Positions 1 through 20,833 of a DNA stretch of 25,404 nucleotides are shown piece by piece. Made by a program: the position numbers and the translations under genes. Position 1 is the stretch's first letter. Every line of letters starts with the position of its first letter. The notes under the pieces are model-generated. The model made no database searches. It worked only from the letters and a program-made list of their open reading frames with translations, and was not told the DNA's origin. The DNA is from Tidjanibacter sp. (GTDB taxonomy: Bacteria; Bacteroidota; Bacteroidia; Bacteroidales; Rikenellaceae): assembly GCA_017379955.1 (NCBI GenBank), contig JAFNVE010000160.1:1-25404 (forward strand), written 5' to 3'.

Positions 1-14
1 GAGCATAGGGACAA

Positions 15-77
15 TCCTTAAACTCCTTAAACTCCCATTATTCCCACAACTCCCATAATTCCTATAATTCCTATTCG
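15..77. repeat. 9-bp-period imperfect tandem array (copy 1)
   Basis: Seven consecutive 9-bp units run from 15 to 77 with no break in phase: TCCTTAAAC twice, then TCCCATTAT, TCCCACAAC, TCCCATAAT, TCCTATAAT and TCCTATTCG. The unit and period match the second array at 20092-20172. The minus strand is G-rich, with GGG runs opposite 34-36, 43-45 and 52-54. The array begins 10 bp beyond the hairpin at 87-123, on the far side from the minus-strand HAD gene. No coding function is seen. Confidence 0.85.
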
Positions 78-86
78 CCTTATCAA

Positions 87-123
87 AAAACCCGAGCGCA
101 ATTCGATATTGCGCTCGGGTTTT
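87..123 (-). terminator. Rho-independent terminator-like hairpin
   Basis: Arms 87-102 and 108-123 are perfectly complementary (core CCCGAGCGCAAT) around a 5-nt loop. Read on the minus strand the stem is followed by a run of six T, as expected for an intrinsic terminator of transcription coming from the HAD gene. The hairpin lies about 70 bp beyond that gene's stop codon and behind a first terminator, so it is a second, back-up element or part of a dispersed repeat. Confidence 0.75.
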
Positions 124-138
124 ATCCAATTTTGAATC
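105..138 (-). repeat. 33-bp dispersed repeat, left copy
   Basis: Read on the minus strand, 138 down to 105 matches the plus strand at 25369-25401 with one substitution and one single-base gap. The match includes the hairpin 5' arm (CCCGAGCGCAAT) and the non-stem flank CAAAATTGGATAAA, so it is more than two similar terminators. In both places it lies downstream of a gene and points in that gene's direction. Confidence 0.8.
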
Positions 139-157
139 TTGAATTTTGAATTTTGCA
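130..157. repeat. Heptamer tandem repeat (TTTTGAA)x4
   Basis: Four 7-bp units are visible: TTTTGAA (130), TCTTGAA (137), TTTTGAA (144) and TTTTGCA (151). The minus strand reads as TTCAAAA-type heptamers. Heptamer repeats of this kind are known from cyanobacterial intergenic DNA (STRR sequences). The tract bridges the two hairpins of the left-end module. Confidence 0.7.
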
Positions 158-160
158 TTA

Positions 161-192
161 AAAAAATAGAGGTCTTTCAACCTCTATTTTTT
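161..192. terminator. Bidirectional intrinsic terminator after the HAD gene
   Basis: A perfect 13-bp stem (161-173 with 180-192, AAAAAATAGAGGT) closes a 6-nt loop. The A/T-rich ends supply U-tracts in both directions. It abuts the stop codon of the minus-strand HAD gene (193-195), so it is the primary terminator of the porX-tsaE-HAD transcript. Confidence 0.85.
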
Positions 193-780
193 CTACTCCG
201 TCGCCAGGCGGTAGATCTCCTCGGGGGTGGTGTCGGGGTTGGCGAAGTGGATGGTGTTGATACCCAGCTCCTCGGCGGCGAGTAGGTTTGTCTTCTTATC
301 GTCGGTGAAGAGGGTCTCGGCGGGGTTGAGGTCGTATTTCTCCAAGAGGCGTTCATAGATTGCGCGCTCGGGTTTGAGCAGGTGTTCGTGGCTCGAAATC
401 ACTGCGCCGTCGAAATATTTGGCTACGGGGAACTTCTCAATCTCCGCCCAATACTCCTTCGGCATATTCGAGAGAATATAGCAACGGCAACCAGCCTCCT
501 TCAATCTGCGCACCAGGTCGCAGGTCTCGGGTACTTCGCTCAGCAACTCCAATACCTTGTCGATAAGTCCGTTAGCCTCCTCGATGCTTACATTGGCATC
601 TGCCGCGAGTGCCTCAGCAACCTCCTGTTTGGTGCGGGTGCCACGGTCGAAGTCGTGCCAATAGTCGGGGAATTTATCCTGACGGAAGAAGGAGAAGTGG
701 TCGCCCACAATCTCGTCAAATCTATTAAAGTCGCGGCCCAAAACGACACCGCCCAAATCAAATACTATATTTTTATACAT
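193..780 (-). CDS. HAD family phosphatase (YihX-like)
   Basis: This is a 195-residue cytosolic hydrolase of the haloacid dehalogenase superfamily, subfamily IA. All four motifs are visible: the nucleophile D8 in FDLGG, S104 in YILSN, K136 in LLKPE, and the metal-binding D160-D161 in LFTDD. A helical cap of roughly 75 residues follows motif I. The usual second Asp of motif I (DxD) is Gly here, as in YihX-type sugar-phosphate phosphatases; the actual substrate cannot be read from the sequence. The frame extends to a TTG at 828, but the ATG at 780 puts motif I at residue 8, the normal place, so it is preferred. It is the last gene of a tight operon, its start 41 bp after the tsaE stop, and is followed directly by a terminator. 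Confidence 0.85.
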   Translation of the reverse strand: MYKNIVFDLGGVVLGRDFNRFDEIVGDHFSFFRQDKFPDYWHDFDRGTRTKQEVAEALAADANVSIEEANGLIDKVLELLSEVPETCDLVRRLKEAGCRCYILSNMPKEYWAEIEKFPVAKYFDGAVISSHEHLLKPERAIYERLLEKYDLNPAETLFTDDKKTNLLAAEELGINTIHFANPDTTPEEIYRLATE

Positions 781-18969: not shown

Positions 18970-19842
18970 ATGAAAAAGGAACTGACTGATTTTGAGCGCG
19001 GTATTATTGAAGAGCGCAAGACAGAGGCCCCCTTTACGGGCGAGTATGTGAACAACCACCGCGACGGCACCTACTACTGTCGTAAGTGTGGCGCGCCGCT
19101 CTATCGTTCGGCTGACAAGTTCGACTCTGCGTGTGGCTGGCCCTCGTTCGACGACGAGATTGAGGGTGCTGTGGCACGCAAACCCGATGCCGACGGGGTG
19201 CGTGTAGAGATTGTCTGTACGGCGTGTGGTGCGCACCTCGGCCACGTATTCAATGGCGAGGGTTACACCCTGAAAAACATCCGCCACTGCGTAAACTCGG
19301 CCTCTATCGACTTCGAGCGCGAGAAGAGTGGCGAGGGCGTGCCCGAGAGTGGCGTGCTCGCAAATGCTATATTCGCGGGTGGCTGCTTCTGGGGCGTGGA
19401 GCATCTGATGCGCAAGGTCAAGGGAGTGGTGAGTGTCACCTCAGGATATACGGGCGGCCAGCTGCGTAATCCCTCGTATCAGCAGGTGAAGAGTGGCCAG
19501 ACAGGTCACGTCGAGGCGGTGTGGATTGTCTACGACCCCTCGGAGGTTGAGTATCGCACACTATTGCGCCACTTCTTTGAGATTCACGACTTTACGCAGA
19601 CAGACGGCCAGGGGCCCGATATCGGCTCGCAATATCTCTCGAAGGTATTCTGGGCGGGCGAGGAGCAACGAGTAGTGGCCGAGCAGACAATAGCCGAACT
19701 GGAGGCTATGGGCTATAAGGTAGCCACCGAACTGCGCCCCGCAGTCCGCTTCTGGCGCGCCGAGGAGTATCATCAGAAGTATTTCATAAAGAAAGGACAA
19801 GACGAAACCGAATGCCATTTCCATAAACCAATAAATTGGTAA
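18970..19842 (+). CDS. msrBA: Bifunctional methionine sulfoxide reductase MsrB-MsrA fusion
   Basis: This 290-residue fusion repairs both epimers of methionine sulfoxide. MsrB (about 1-120) has its zinc site at C37/C40 (CRKCG) and C83/C86 (CTACG) and the catalytic C107 in RHCVNSAS. MsrA (about 132-290) has the catalytic C139 in GGCFWGVEH. The order is B then A, opposite to the A-B order of many fusions. There is no signal peptide, so it is cytosolic. It follows the CotH gene by 12 bp; the link between the two is unknown. The ATG at 18970 is the only start that keeps the full MsrB N-terminus. Confidence 0.95.
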   Translation: MKKELTDFERGIIEERKTEAPFTGEYVNNHRDGTYYCRKCGAPLYRSADKFDSACGWPSFDDEIEGAVARKPDADGVRVEIVCTACGAHLGHVFNGEGYTLKNIRHCVNSASIDFEREKSGEGVPESGVLANAIFAGGCFWGVEHLMRKVKGVVSVTSGYTGGQLRNPSYQQVKSGQTGHVEAVWIVYDPSEVEYRTLLRHFFEIHDFTQTDGQGPDIGSQYLSKVFWAGEEQRVVAEQTIAELEAMGYKVATELRPAVRFWRAEEYHQKYFIKKGQDETECHFHKPINW

Positions 19843-19857: not shown

Positions 19858-19902
19858 CTTTTTTGTAAAAAAGCGTCCCCCGCTTTTTGTAAAAAGCGGG
19901 AC
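19858..19902. repeat. Overlapping mutually exclusive hairpins
   Basis: Three stems share arms: CTTTTTT/AAAAAAG (19858-19864 with 19867-19873), AAAAAGCG/CGCTTTTT (19868-19875 with 19881-19888) and CCCGCTTTTT/AAAAAGCGGG (19879-19888 with 19891-19900). Two have only a GT dinucleotide between the arms, a tight loop. The middle form has a C-rich loop (TCCCC) and is most like a terminator. It starts 16 bp after the msrBA stop codon. Confidence 0.6.
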
Positions 19903-19939
19903 CAAAAACTTCTGGGCTATTAGTTTGCGAGTTTAGGAA

Positions 19940-19947
19940 TAACTTTG
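19940..19947 (+). promoter_or_regulatory. Orphan promoter-like -7 box
   Basis: TAACTTTG is identical to the porX -7 box. No good -33 is seen at 19-21 bp (a TTTG at 19924 is only 12 bp away). No gene follows; a strong terminator begins 14 bp later, so any transcript would be about 60 nt. Confidence 0.35.
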
Positions 19948-19961
19948 CAGTTATTACGACA

Positions 19962-20015
19962 AAAAAGAGATATGGAGTTTGTTCAAGTAAATTTGACAAC
20001 TCCATATCTCTTTTT
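19962..20015. terminator. Strong bidirectional hairpin terminator
   Basis: Arms 19962-19979 and 19998-20015 (AAAAAGAGATATGGAGTT) are perfectly complementary over 18 bp. A further inner stem with a bulge (TTGTTCAA/TTGACAA) narrows the loop to GTAAAT. Terminal T-tracts occur on both strands. It can terminate msrBA readthrough from the left and mgsA readthrough from the right. Confidence 0.85.
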
Positions 20016-20091
20016 CATCGTACCCTCTACGAGGGTATCCCCTAAACCCGAAAAACCCAATTGCTACACAAAGAGTTTAATTTAAAACTTG

Positions 20092-20172
20092 TCCCTAAAC
20101 TCCCTAAATTCTTTAATCTCCCTAATCTCCCTAAACTCCCATAATTCCCATCACTCCCTAAACTCTCTTTAT
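20092..20172. repeat. 9-bp-period imperfect tandem array (copy 2), G4-capable on minus strand
   Basis: Nine units are in exact 9-bp phase: TCCCTAAAC, TCCCTAAAT, TCTTTAATC, TCCCTAATC, TCCCTAAAC, TCCCATAAT, TCCCATCAC, TCCCTAAAC and TCTCTTTAT. The minus strand has five successive GGG runs (opposite 20120, 20129, 20138, 20147 and 20156) with 6-nt spacers, which satisfies the usual G-quadruplex pattern. The array starts 6 bp beyond the hairpin at 20178-20212, as the left array starts 10 bp beyond its hairpin. Confidence 0.88.
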
Positions 20173-20177
20173 ATGAA

Positions 20178-20212
20178 AGCAGTCGAGTTGGTATCGAACC
20201 AACTCGACTGCT
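20178..20212 (-). terminator. Perfect 15-bp hairpin downstream of mgsA
   Basis: AGCAGTCGAGTTGGT (20178-20192) and its complement (20198-20212) flank a 5-nt loop ATCGA. On the minus strand the stem is followed by TTTCATAT, a short U-rich tail. It lies 18 bp beyond the mgsA stop codon and is the likely mgsA terminator. A small second hairpin, TTGCATT/AATGCAA (20222-20238), straddles that stop codon. Confidence 0.75.
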
Positions 20213-20229
20213 AAACTAATCTTGCATTT

Positions 20230-20712
20230 CTAATGCAACACTCTCTCTATGTAGGCTTTATAATCCTTTGCGGTGGGTTTGTACTCCTCATCTGCGAAGA
20301 GGGGCGAGGAGATGAGCATATCGGCCGAGGAGCGGTTAATTGCGGTCGGCACGTTGTAGAGAGTTGCCAGGCGAAGCAGTGCCTTGACATCCACATCGTG
20401 GGGCTGTGCCTGCATGGGGTCCCAGAAGAAGATGAGAGCCGAAATCTTGCCCTCGGCAATCATCGAGCCGAGCTGCTGGTCGCCACCAAGAGGGCCCGAT
20501 TTAAGGAGAGTAATATCGAAACTATCGCTACTCTGGTGGTGGCGTTCCATCAGTGTAGTGGCGACCATCTTACCTGTTGTGCCGGTGCATACGAGGTGGT
20601 GGCTGAGCAACAACTCCCAATTCCAGTCCACCCACTCAACCAAATCACGCTTCATATTGTCGTGTGCCACAAGGGCTACACTCTTCTTAATTGTTCCCAT
20701 ACCTTTTCTCAT
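20230..20712 (-). CDS. mgsA: Methylglyoxal synthase
   Basis: MgsA converts dihydroxyacetone phosphate to methylglyoxal and phosphate, a glycolysis bypass that relieves sugar-phosphate stress. With the ATG at 20712 the protein is 160 residues, near the E. coli length of 152. Key residues are present: the catalytic base D78 in GPLGGDQQ, D98 in FFWDP, H105 in QPHD, and the substrate-phosphate region TGTTGK (43-48). The frame stays open to 20763, but that start would lie upstream of the TATATTTG promoter box at 20741-20748. ATG 20700 (156 residues) is also possible; 20712 is preferred for its A/T-rich upstream sequence. Confidence 0.93.
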   Translation of the reverse strand: MRKGMGTIKKSVALVAHDNMKRDLVEWVDWNWELLLSHHLVCTGTTGKMVATTLMERHHQSSDSFDITLLKSGPLGGDQQLGSMIAEGKISALIFFWDPMQAQPHDVDVKALLRLATLYNVPTAINRSSADMLISSPLFADEEYKPTAKDYKAYIERVLH

Positions 20713-20740
20713 TTTATACATTAGATAGTTACAATCCATA

Positions 20741-20748
20741 CAAATATA
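20741..20748 (-). promoter_or_regulatory. Probable -7 box of mgsA
   Basis: On the minus strand TATATTTG matches TAnnTTTG 28 bp upstream of the ATG at 20712. A TTTG at 20764-20761 is only 12 bp away, too near for a standard -33 element. Confidence 0.5.
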
Positions 20749-20833
20749 GGGGTTAATGGCCAAAAAACCTAATTTTTTTTGGTGGTTGGTGGGCGGTAGT
20801 TGTTAGAGTGTGTGATAATTCATAAAAAATGGT

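Follow-up and report, generated by a model that had tools for sequence, protein, structure and literature searches.

Hairpins and polar 9-bp repeat arrays in a fixed arrangement between genes of Tidjanibacter sp. and a sister species

Hairpins and arrays of 9-bp units were found to follow each other in a fixed order between genes of Tidjanibacter sp., with the G-rich strand of the array reading away from the hairpin. Statistical support for this arrangement is solid in the draft genome from which the analysed DNA came (hereafter the own genome) and in one sister species (G236); the arrangement belongs to a larger whole and does not occur universally. On balance, we regard it as a composite mosaic of dispersed intergenic repeats built on terminator hairpins rather than as a dedicated 3'-end device. 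The window, i.e., the whole stretch of DNA analysed (25,404 nucleotides), is one contig of a draft of 1,485,520 bases in 202 contigs that is 77% complete. The nearest named mgsA loci belong to Tidjanibacter MAGs from yak and sheep gut (96–97% identity), and identity with G236 over the window region was 81% on the msrAB side and 88% on the mgsA side.

The two array junctions of the window

Rechecking the letters of the window confirmed the coordinates given in the preliminary description for hairpin and array at both loci (Table 1). A minus-strand gene followed by a perfect hairpin and then by the array was likewise present at both, with the correction that a further hairpin at the HAD locus had been overlooked; as it abuts the HAD stop codon, the hairpin at 87–123 is not the first one after this gene. 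Fold energies of the H hairpins at 87–123 and 20178–20212 were −26.0 and −26.6 kcal/mol, with z-scores of −8.1 and −8.6, respectively, relative to 200 shuffles. A 14-nt array pattern with up to three mismatches allowed matched the window 14 times vs. 1.84 expected.

Table 1. Positions of hairpins, arrays, the R element and neighbouring genes in the window.
Feature	Position	Strand	Remarks
Inner end of opposite arm (G-rich on +) and 3-bp centre CAA, GAGCATAGGGACAA	1..14		Contig start cuts the arm
9-bp array, C-rich arm	15..77	+	6 clean units as far as 68; G-rich strand directed away from the HAD gene
H hairpin, 16-bp perfect stem, 5-nt loop ATCGA (gene sense), A and T tracts	87..123	-
7-bp AATTTTG repeat	128..159		Recurrent on the gene side of H hairpins
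Second HAD-side hairpin	161..192	-	Abuts the HAD stop codon
HAD-like hydrolase gene	193..780	-	PF00702, PF13419; coding score
Methionine sulfoxide reductase gene msrAB (PMSR + SelR)	18970..19842	+	Convergent with mgsA
S hairpin CCCGCTTTTTGTAAAAAGCGGG	19879..19900		Between msrAB and R
R element: closing stem, three hairpins, four-way junction	19928..20051	-
9-bp array, C-rich arm, 9 units	20092..20172	+	R on the centre side
H hairpin, 15-bp perfect stem, 5-nt loop TTCGA (gene sense)	20178..20212	-
mgsA, methylglyoxal synthase-like gene	20230..20763	-	MGS domain; Pfam run on 20230–20697

The letters at positions 1–14 also precede C-rich arms at other loci, such as L151 and L173, and at the syntenic G236 locus (L234) both array arms are present beside the same HAD gene. 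The first array of the window is therefore one arm of an inverted pair. On its other flank, L234 matched contig C117 of the own draft, the end of which is itself an array (L149); this synteny suggests that contigs C117 and C6 are neighbours that were split inside an array pair. Several other contigs of the draft likewise start or end within arrays, and such breaks explain part of its fragmentation.

Comparison with related genomes indicated turnover of the modules at orthologous sites. At the HAD junction, G236 carries arrays together with a hairpin whose loop is again ATCGA and whose stem differs and contains one mismatch, in agreement with the earlier proposal that the arrangement and not the hairpin sequence is conserved. 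At mgsA, the array and R are kept in G236 and another module occupies the place of H. At two orthologous junctions, another genome of the genus (G241) has H with compensated stem changes, and the own genome adds an array (L114) or an array plus R (L166) beyond it. The boundaries of the sequence absent from G241 were imprecise, and loss is as likely as gain.

Further observations concerned the mgsA region. In G241 (contig C72; L190, L211, L257), mgsA and msrAB are not neighbours and no array was seen; the sequence 3' of mgsA resembles a tRNA, and msrAB adjoins an rnhA-like gene (gene names assigned by eye). Positions 19880–19911 of the window, overlapping the S hairpin, had many matches in other genomes of the genus, with 87–100% identity over approximately 30–40 nt.

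Order and strand of hairpins and arrays

Hairpin adjacency was scored with two strict finders, one calling arrays of at least three units and the other perfect stems of at least 8 bp; a hairpin was counted as adjacent if it was perfect, had a stem of at least 8 with at least three GC pairs and a loop of 3–8, and lay within 45 bp. The own set consisted of 63 stretches taken among the matches listed, which yielded 110 merged arrays including the two of the window, and the G236 stretches came from the first 100 of 242 matches. Five other species (G245, G244, G240, G234, and G232, the last with one stretch) were represented by stretches from BLAST matches that mostly covered the window's own array region. 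Owing to this sampling among listed matches and BLAST matches to the window array, weak arrays were under-sampled.

A hairpin was located on the 5' side of the G-rich strand in 37 of 101 assessable own arrays and on the 3' side in 2 of 94 (p = 2.7e-10, arrays treated as independent). The corresponding values in G236 were 23/64 and 3/67 (p = 5e-6, on the same assumption). Because the paired arm occupies the inner side of an array, the unpaired arrays constitute the fair comparison, and among these the 5' and 3' values were 17/42 vs. 2/33 in the own genome (p = 0.00097) and 7/17 vs. 1/19 in G236 (p = 0.016). Arrays are mutually related and yet were counted as independent, so that all these p values are too small and overstate the case. 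No perfect hairpin was present on the 5' side of 64 of the 101 own arrays. The adjacency exceeded the ordinary presence of hairpins at gene ends: among gene 3' ends that had an array no more than 400 bp away, 40 of 90 had a perfect hairpin within 150 bp, compared to 13 of 65 array-free ends, and for hairpins with a TCGA loop the respective counts were 17/90 and 0/65.

Scoring across related genomes gave a divided result. The fixed order and strand claimed for the two window loci were borne out throughout the own genome and G236, whereas the arrays sampled in the five other species displayed no hairpin bias (5' side 2/60, 3' side 4/60). A lack of adjacency bias, which the preliminary description would have taken as a sign of chance, was hence found in these five species and not in the own genome or G236. 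This contradicts a universal hairpin–array module and indicates that hairpin and array are separable.

The H hairpins themselves were searched in nine genomes of the genus with the pattern GAGAGNNNTATCGAANNNCTCTC, in which N positions are free and pairing is not required. It matched 37 times in the own genome, 58 times in G236, and 32 times in G241 (127 in total; reversed control, 0), and was absent from the six other species of the genus among the nine genomes searched, including G245, G244, G240, and G234. Many hairpins thus located share a TATCGAA loop, which is fixed by the search pattern, and have covarying stems. At the three free pairs, 119 of the 127 copies were fully Watson–Crick, seven had G-U pairs and one was mismatched (five main triplet types), i.e., pairing was kept at all three positions in 126. 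The two window hairpins have other stems and fall outside the pattern. Among 53 distinct H copies with flanks, 43 had TTTT within 14 nt 3' of the 23-nt core, and H thereby combines the strong stem and T tract of an intrinsic terminator. Judged by its placement and build, H looks like a bidirectional intrinsic terminator. The gene side of H hairpins repeatedly bears a 7-bp AATTTTG/CAAAATT repeat, at 128–159 in the window and at L260, L276, and L279–L283.

A search that started from the hairpins gave the same orientation. Of 30 H loci chosen regardless of arrays, 26 were uncut, and 16 of these had an array of at least three units within 130 bp, with the G-rich strand reading away from the hairpin in 15. 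Such an array was missing from the other 10 uncut loci, indicating that H also stands alone.

The relation to transcription was less strict. Arrays occupied 23 convergent, 18 co-directional, and no divergent junctions, vs. 3, 51, and 10 array-free junctions, respectively, in the same stretches; as the stretches had been chosen for arrays, these counts describe the arrays and are not a genome survey. Gene calls were made with an in-house hexamer model, and the junction count kept genes scoring above 25 and those junctions for which both neighbours were available. No array lay more than 30 bp inside a gene call from both ends, and the few short, low-scoring calls that overlap arrays (such as L132 and L143) are probably not genes. 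In 69 of 85 cases the array was approached by the gene located 5' of its G-rich strand, and the G-rich strand led away from the nearest gene in 41 of 63. However, the gene on the 3' side pointed toward the array as well (61/76), and the link to transcription sense is thus much weaker than the link to the hairpin.

Array pairs, unit turnover and the R element

Arrays on opposite strands and at most 60 bp apart had the order G-rich then C-rich in 70 out of 70 cases (32/32 in the own genome, 24/24 in G236, and 14/14 in other species); one further adjacent couple in the own genome was on the same strand. The spacer was exactly 3 bp, the modal length in both genomes, in 18/32 own and 16/24 G236 pairs, and 14 of the 18 own spacers of this length were TAA, TTA, or CAA. 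The strand rule follows from the palindromic nature of the unit: approached from either side, a hairpin is succeeded by an array with its G-rich strand directed away from the hairpin. No flank was called for 14 of the 32 own pairs; of the remaining 18, seven lay between convergent and 11 between co-directional genes, the latter indicating that the order belongs to the element and not to gene direction. The 46 unpaired own arrays ended at a contig end (13), at R (12), or at a weak opposite arm (11), or were single (10).

Similarity between the arms of the same pair and arms from different loci was 0.672 vs. 0.712 in one comparison and 0.584 vs. 0.671 in the other. Since arms belonging to one pair resemble each other no more closely than arms taken from different loci do, simple duplication of one arm does not fit, and co-evolution of both arms as a single RNA hairpin was rejected on the same grounds. 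The one pair that was folded (L120) was slightly more stable than its shuffles (z −1.45). Plain slippage would predict less regularity than is seen in the fixed 3-bp centre and the 70/70 order. The origin of the invariable G-then-C order with its short centre is odd, and an ancestral palindromic unit is at most what can be suggested for it.

A stricter array pattern (TCCYWWHAYTCCYWWHAYTCC) gave 220 exact matches in the own draft and none when reversed. Within the Rikenellaceae, at least one match occurred in 89 of 268 genomes from 5 of 22 genera, including other-genus genomes with few matches, in some of which the reversed control also matched a few times; among species of the window's genus, the number ranged from 0 to 242. 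The own arrays comprised 115 distinct units among 715. Units of type A (TCCYTA..) were nearer the centre than those of type B (TCCYA...) by 38:6 in the own genome, with the reversed order in G236 (8:31), as would be expected if ordered arrays spread within a genome. Homogenisation within each genome fits the turnover better than independent local slippage.

At mgsA, a 124-nt cloverleaf, the R element, caps the array in place of an opposite arm. Its core motif (TCGGGTTTAGG) matched 27 times in the own draft, each time inside a copy of R or a fragment of R truncated at a contig end. In the alignment set from the own genome, G236, and G241, 28 of 33 uncut copies were preceded by at least two G-rich units no more than 110 bp to the 5' side. 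Of 20 copies from other genera, three had at least two such units and six more had one; array-like G-rich stretches are visible before some of them (such as L332, L335, and L340), and array and R may therefore be linked there as well.

The R consensus fold consists of a closing stem and three hairpins, with double changes at 24 of 50 pairs in a MAFFT alignment of 35 copies; this set included the window copy and left out six copies with a non-fitting 3' end (L128, L141, L185, L234, L239, and L272). When the 20 copies from other genera were added, in an alignment fitted to the structure so that the counts lean toward it, double changes were present at 35 of 50 pairs, 98.3% of cells paired, and 388 cells were changed on both sides; shuffles gave 96.7 (sd 11.8) such cells and slid structures no more than 55. 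Loops in many copies were GNA and GNRA-like as judged by eye.

In a family scan, R was detected in 46 of 268 Rikenellaceae genomes belonging to 4 of 22 genera, and copy numbers are lower bounds because 13 candidates were scored per genome. Five genomes (G044, G052, G066, G070, and G081) had at least 12–13 scored R matches and zero exact array matches. Among the 20 other-genera loci (L332–L351), 13 of the 18 with both neighbours called were convergent. In an Alistipes sp. MAG, a named copy was located 3' of mgsA (L093 6516–6634).

The identity of R was also sought among known elements. No Rfam match over gathering was obtained in the window (19 matches, all under gathering) or at R in 13 R-bearing loci, where two matches fell elsewhere, and R was accordingly rejected as a known RNA. 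A plasmid or phage origin was rejected as the window copy had no blastn match in plasmids or phages; two short exact R patterns had no match in viral contigs. Among the papers listed by full-text searches of open-licence literature, no title or beginning of an abstract described these arrays, hairpins, or R. We tentatively propose that R could be an undescribed multi-copy structured element of the Rikenellaceae, either RNA or single-stranded DNA in transit, maintained by compensatory change and placed between convergent genes. On this reading, some lineages would carry the array as an extension at the 5' edge of R, with H, array, and R exchangeable for one another as parts of a single spreading system.

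Other dispersed modules were observed near arrays and hairpins. A piece of approximately 85 bp (TAATCCTGCTTCGCAGTC...CTCGCTTAATCGCAACGT), whole or partial, occurs beside arrays at L111, L119, L124, L126, L138, L150, L154, L158, and L161. Further modules (CTCGACACCTGCCTGC..GCAGGCAATT; GGTCGTGCC; and, in G236, GGGCCTATTGGGCTTATTA) replace H or separate it from the array (L032 just after 5417; L274; L275; L262 and L271).

Competing explanations and known systems

In the mosaic of intergenic repeats favoured here, H is a hairpin of a bidirectional, intrinsic-terminator-like type whose loop is fixed and whose stem covaries freely, and probably ends transcription. Beyond it lies a slippage-prone 9-bp minisatellite, normally as an inverted pair in which each G-rich strand runs toward the short centre, or alternatively as a single arm capped by R. 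The mosaic is situated 3' of at least one gene and was not encountered between divergent genes, where added DNA would separate promoters. The array itself probably has no sequence-specific job and may be tolerated where genes end, expanding and being homogenised within each species by recombination or by a presumed copying mechanism.

A less probable explanation, though one to be taken seriously, is a non-autonomous mobile element, in which the palindromic pair, or the array with R, is copied by a transposase acting in trans and lands beside hairpins. It would account for the 0 to 242 pattern matches among species of the genus, for the arrays (with R at one of two sites) in the own genome that are absent from the same gene 3' ends in G241, and for the species-specific order of array units. 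However, the array-absent loci could equally be losses, and neither terminal repeats nor target duplications were delimited. The RAYT transposase (Y1_Tnp), the one family searched, was found in 0 of 7 genomes, against 5 of 14 control genomes, with the own draft 77% and G236 95% complete. Arrays without hairpins, H without arrays, and R in genomes without exact array matches also speak against one mobile unit.

Alternatively, a nucleoid, repair, or segregation factor could bind at sites clustered in the array and read its polarity. A period of 9, one polarity per arm, a fixed order, and a short centre would suit such a protein, but the great diversity of units does not, and this explanation appears improbable.

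Still less probable is that the G-rich RNA folds into a quadruplex downstream of the hairpin, where it would block exonucleases or reinforce termination. This reading agrees with the G-rich strand leaving the hairpin in nearly all H loci with a nearby array and with the many GGG-bearing units (340/715 in the own genome and 233/392 in G236). Yet many of the other units carry AGG, GAG, or GTG, and four consecutive GGG units were present in just 24 of 120 own and 19 of 71 G236 arrays, and the proposed RNA quadruplex was rejected on these counts as a general role of the arrays; moreover, a paired C-rich arm would compete through base pairing.

Chance neighbourhood of two unrelated features, consistent with the unbiased arrays of the five other species, is very improbable given the p values in both genomes, also for unpaired arrays alone, the orientation in the hairpin-first search, and the replication in a sister species.

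With a repeat mosaic on terminator hairpins as the favoured reading, the own genome presents a case of many gene-end gaps filled by interchangeable structured modules, in which the arrangement persists while sequences turn over between sister species. It offers an opportunity to study how coupling arises between terminators, minisatellites, and structured elements, and R adds a covarying multi-copy element without Rfam match in a family of gut bacteria.

Rho-independent bidirectional terminators have a strong stem and A and T tracts and lie 3' of genes. H resembles them in all of these features and, unlike ordinary ones, occurs many times with the same fixed loop and is coupled to a repeat. 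In head-to-head telomere-fusion arrays, (TTAGGG)n(CCCTAA)n, both arms have their G-rich strands running to the centre, and the junction is very short. The likeness of the array pairs to these is formal only, as the pairs consist of 9-bp units at many internal sites of a bacterial chromosome.

Among palindromic structured-RNA candidates, 230 of 250 were predicted to be terminators (PMC8040213). REP/BIME elements are described as GTAG- and CGTC-tagged palindromes dispersed in intergenic regions downstream of coding regions, with stems that vary by complementary changes including G-T pairs (PMC3733652). H is similar in being a dispersed intergenic hairpin 3' of genes with complementary stem variation. 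It differs in its 15–16 bp stems (window copies), its TATCGAA-type loop, and the attached 9-bp inverted minisatellite. Membership was rejected as none of the 7 genomes searched had a Y1_Tnp match and no consistent tag was present: CGTC was near 0 of 53 H copies, and 14 of 53 had GTAG no farther than 16 nt from the core, seen as TTTGTAGGG at the array junction. The STAR elements of staphylococci are interspersed intergenic short direct repeats of variable copy number (PMC3532100). The arrays share these properties with STAR and are set apart from it by 9-bp head-to-tail units without spacers, strict polarity, inverted pairing, and hairpin or cloverleaf partners.
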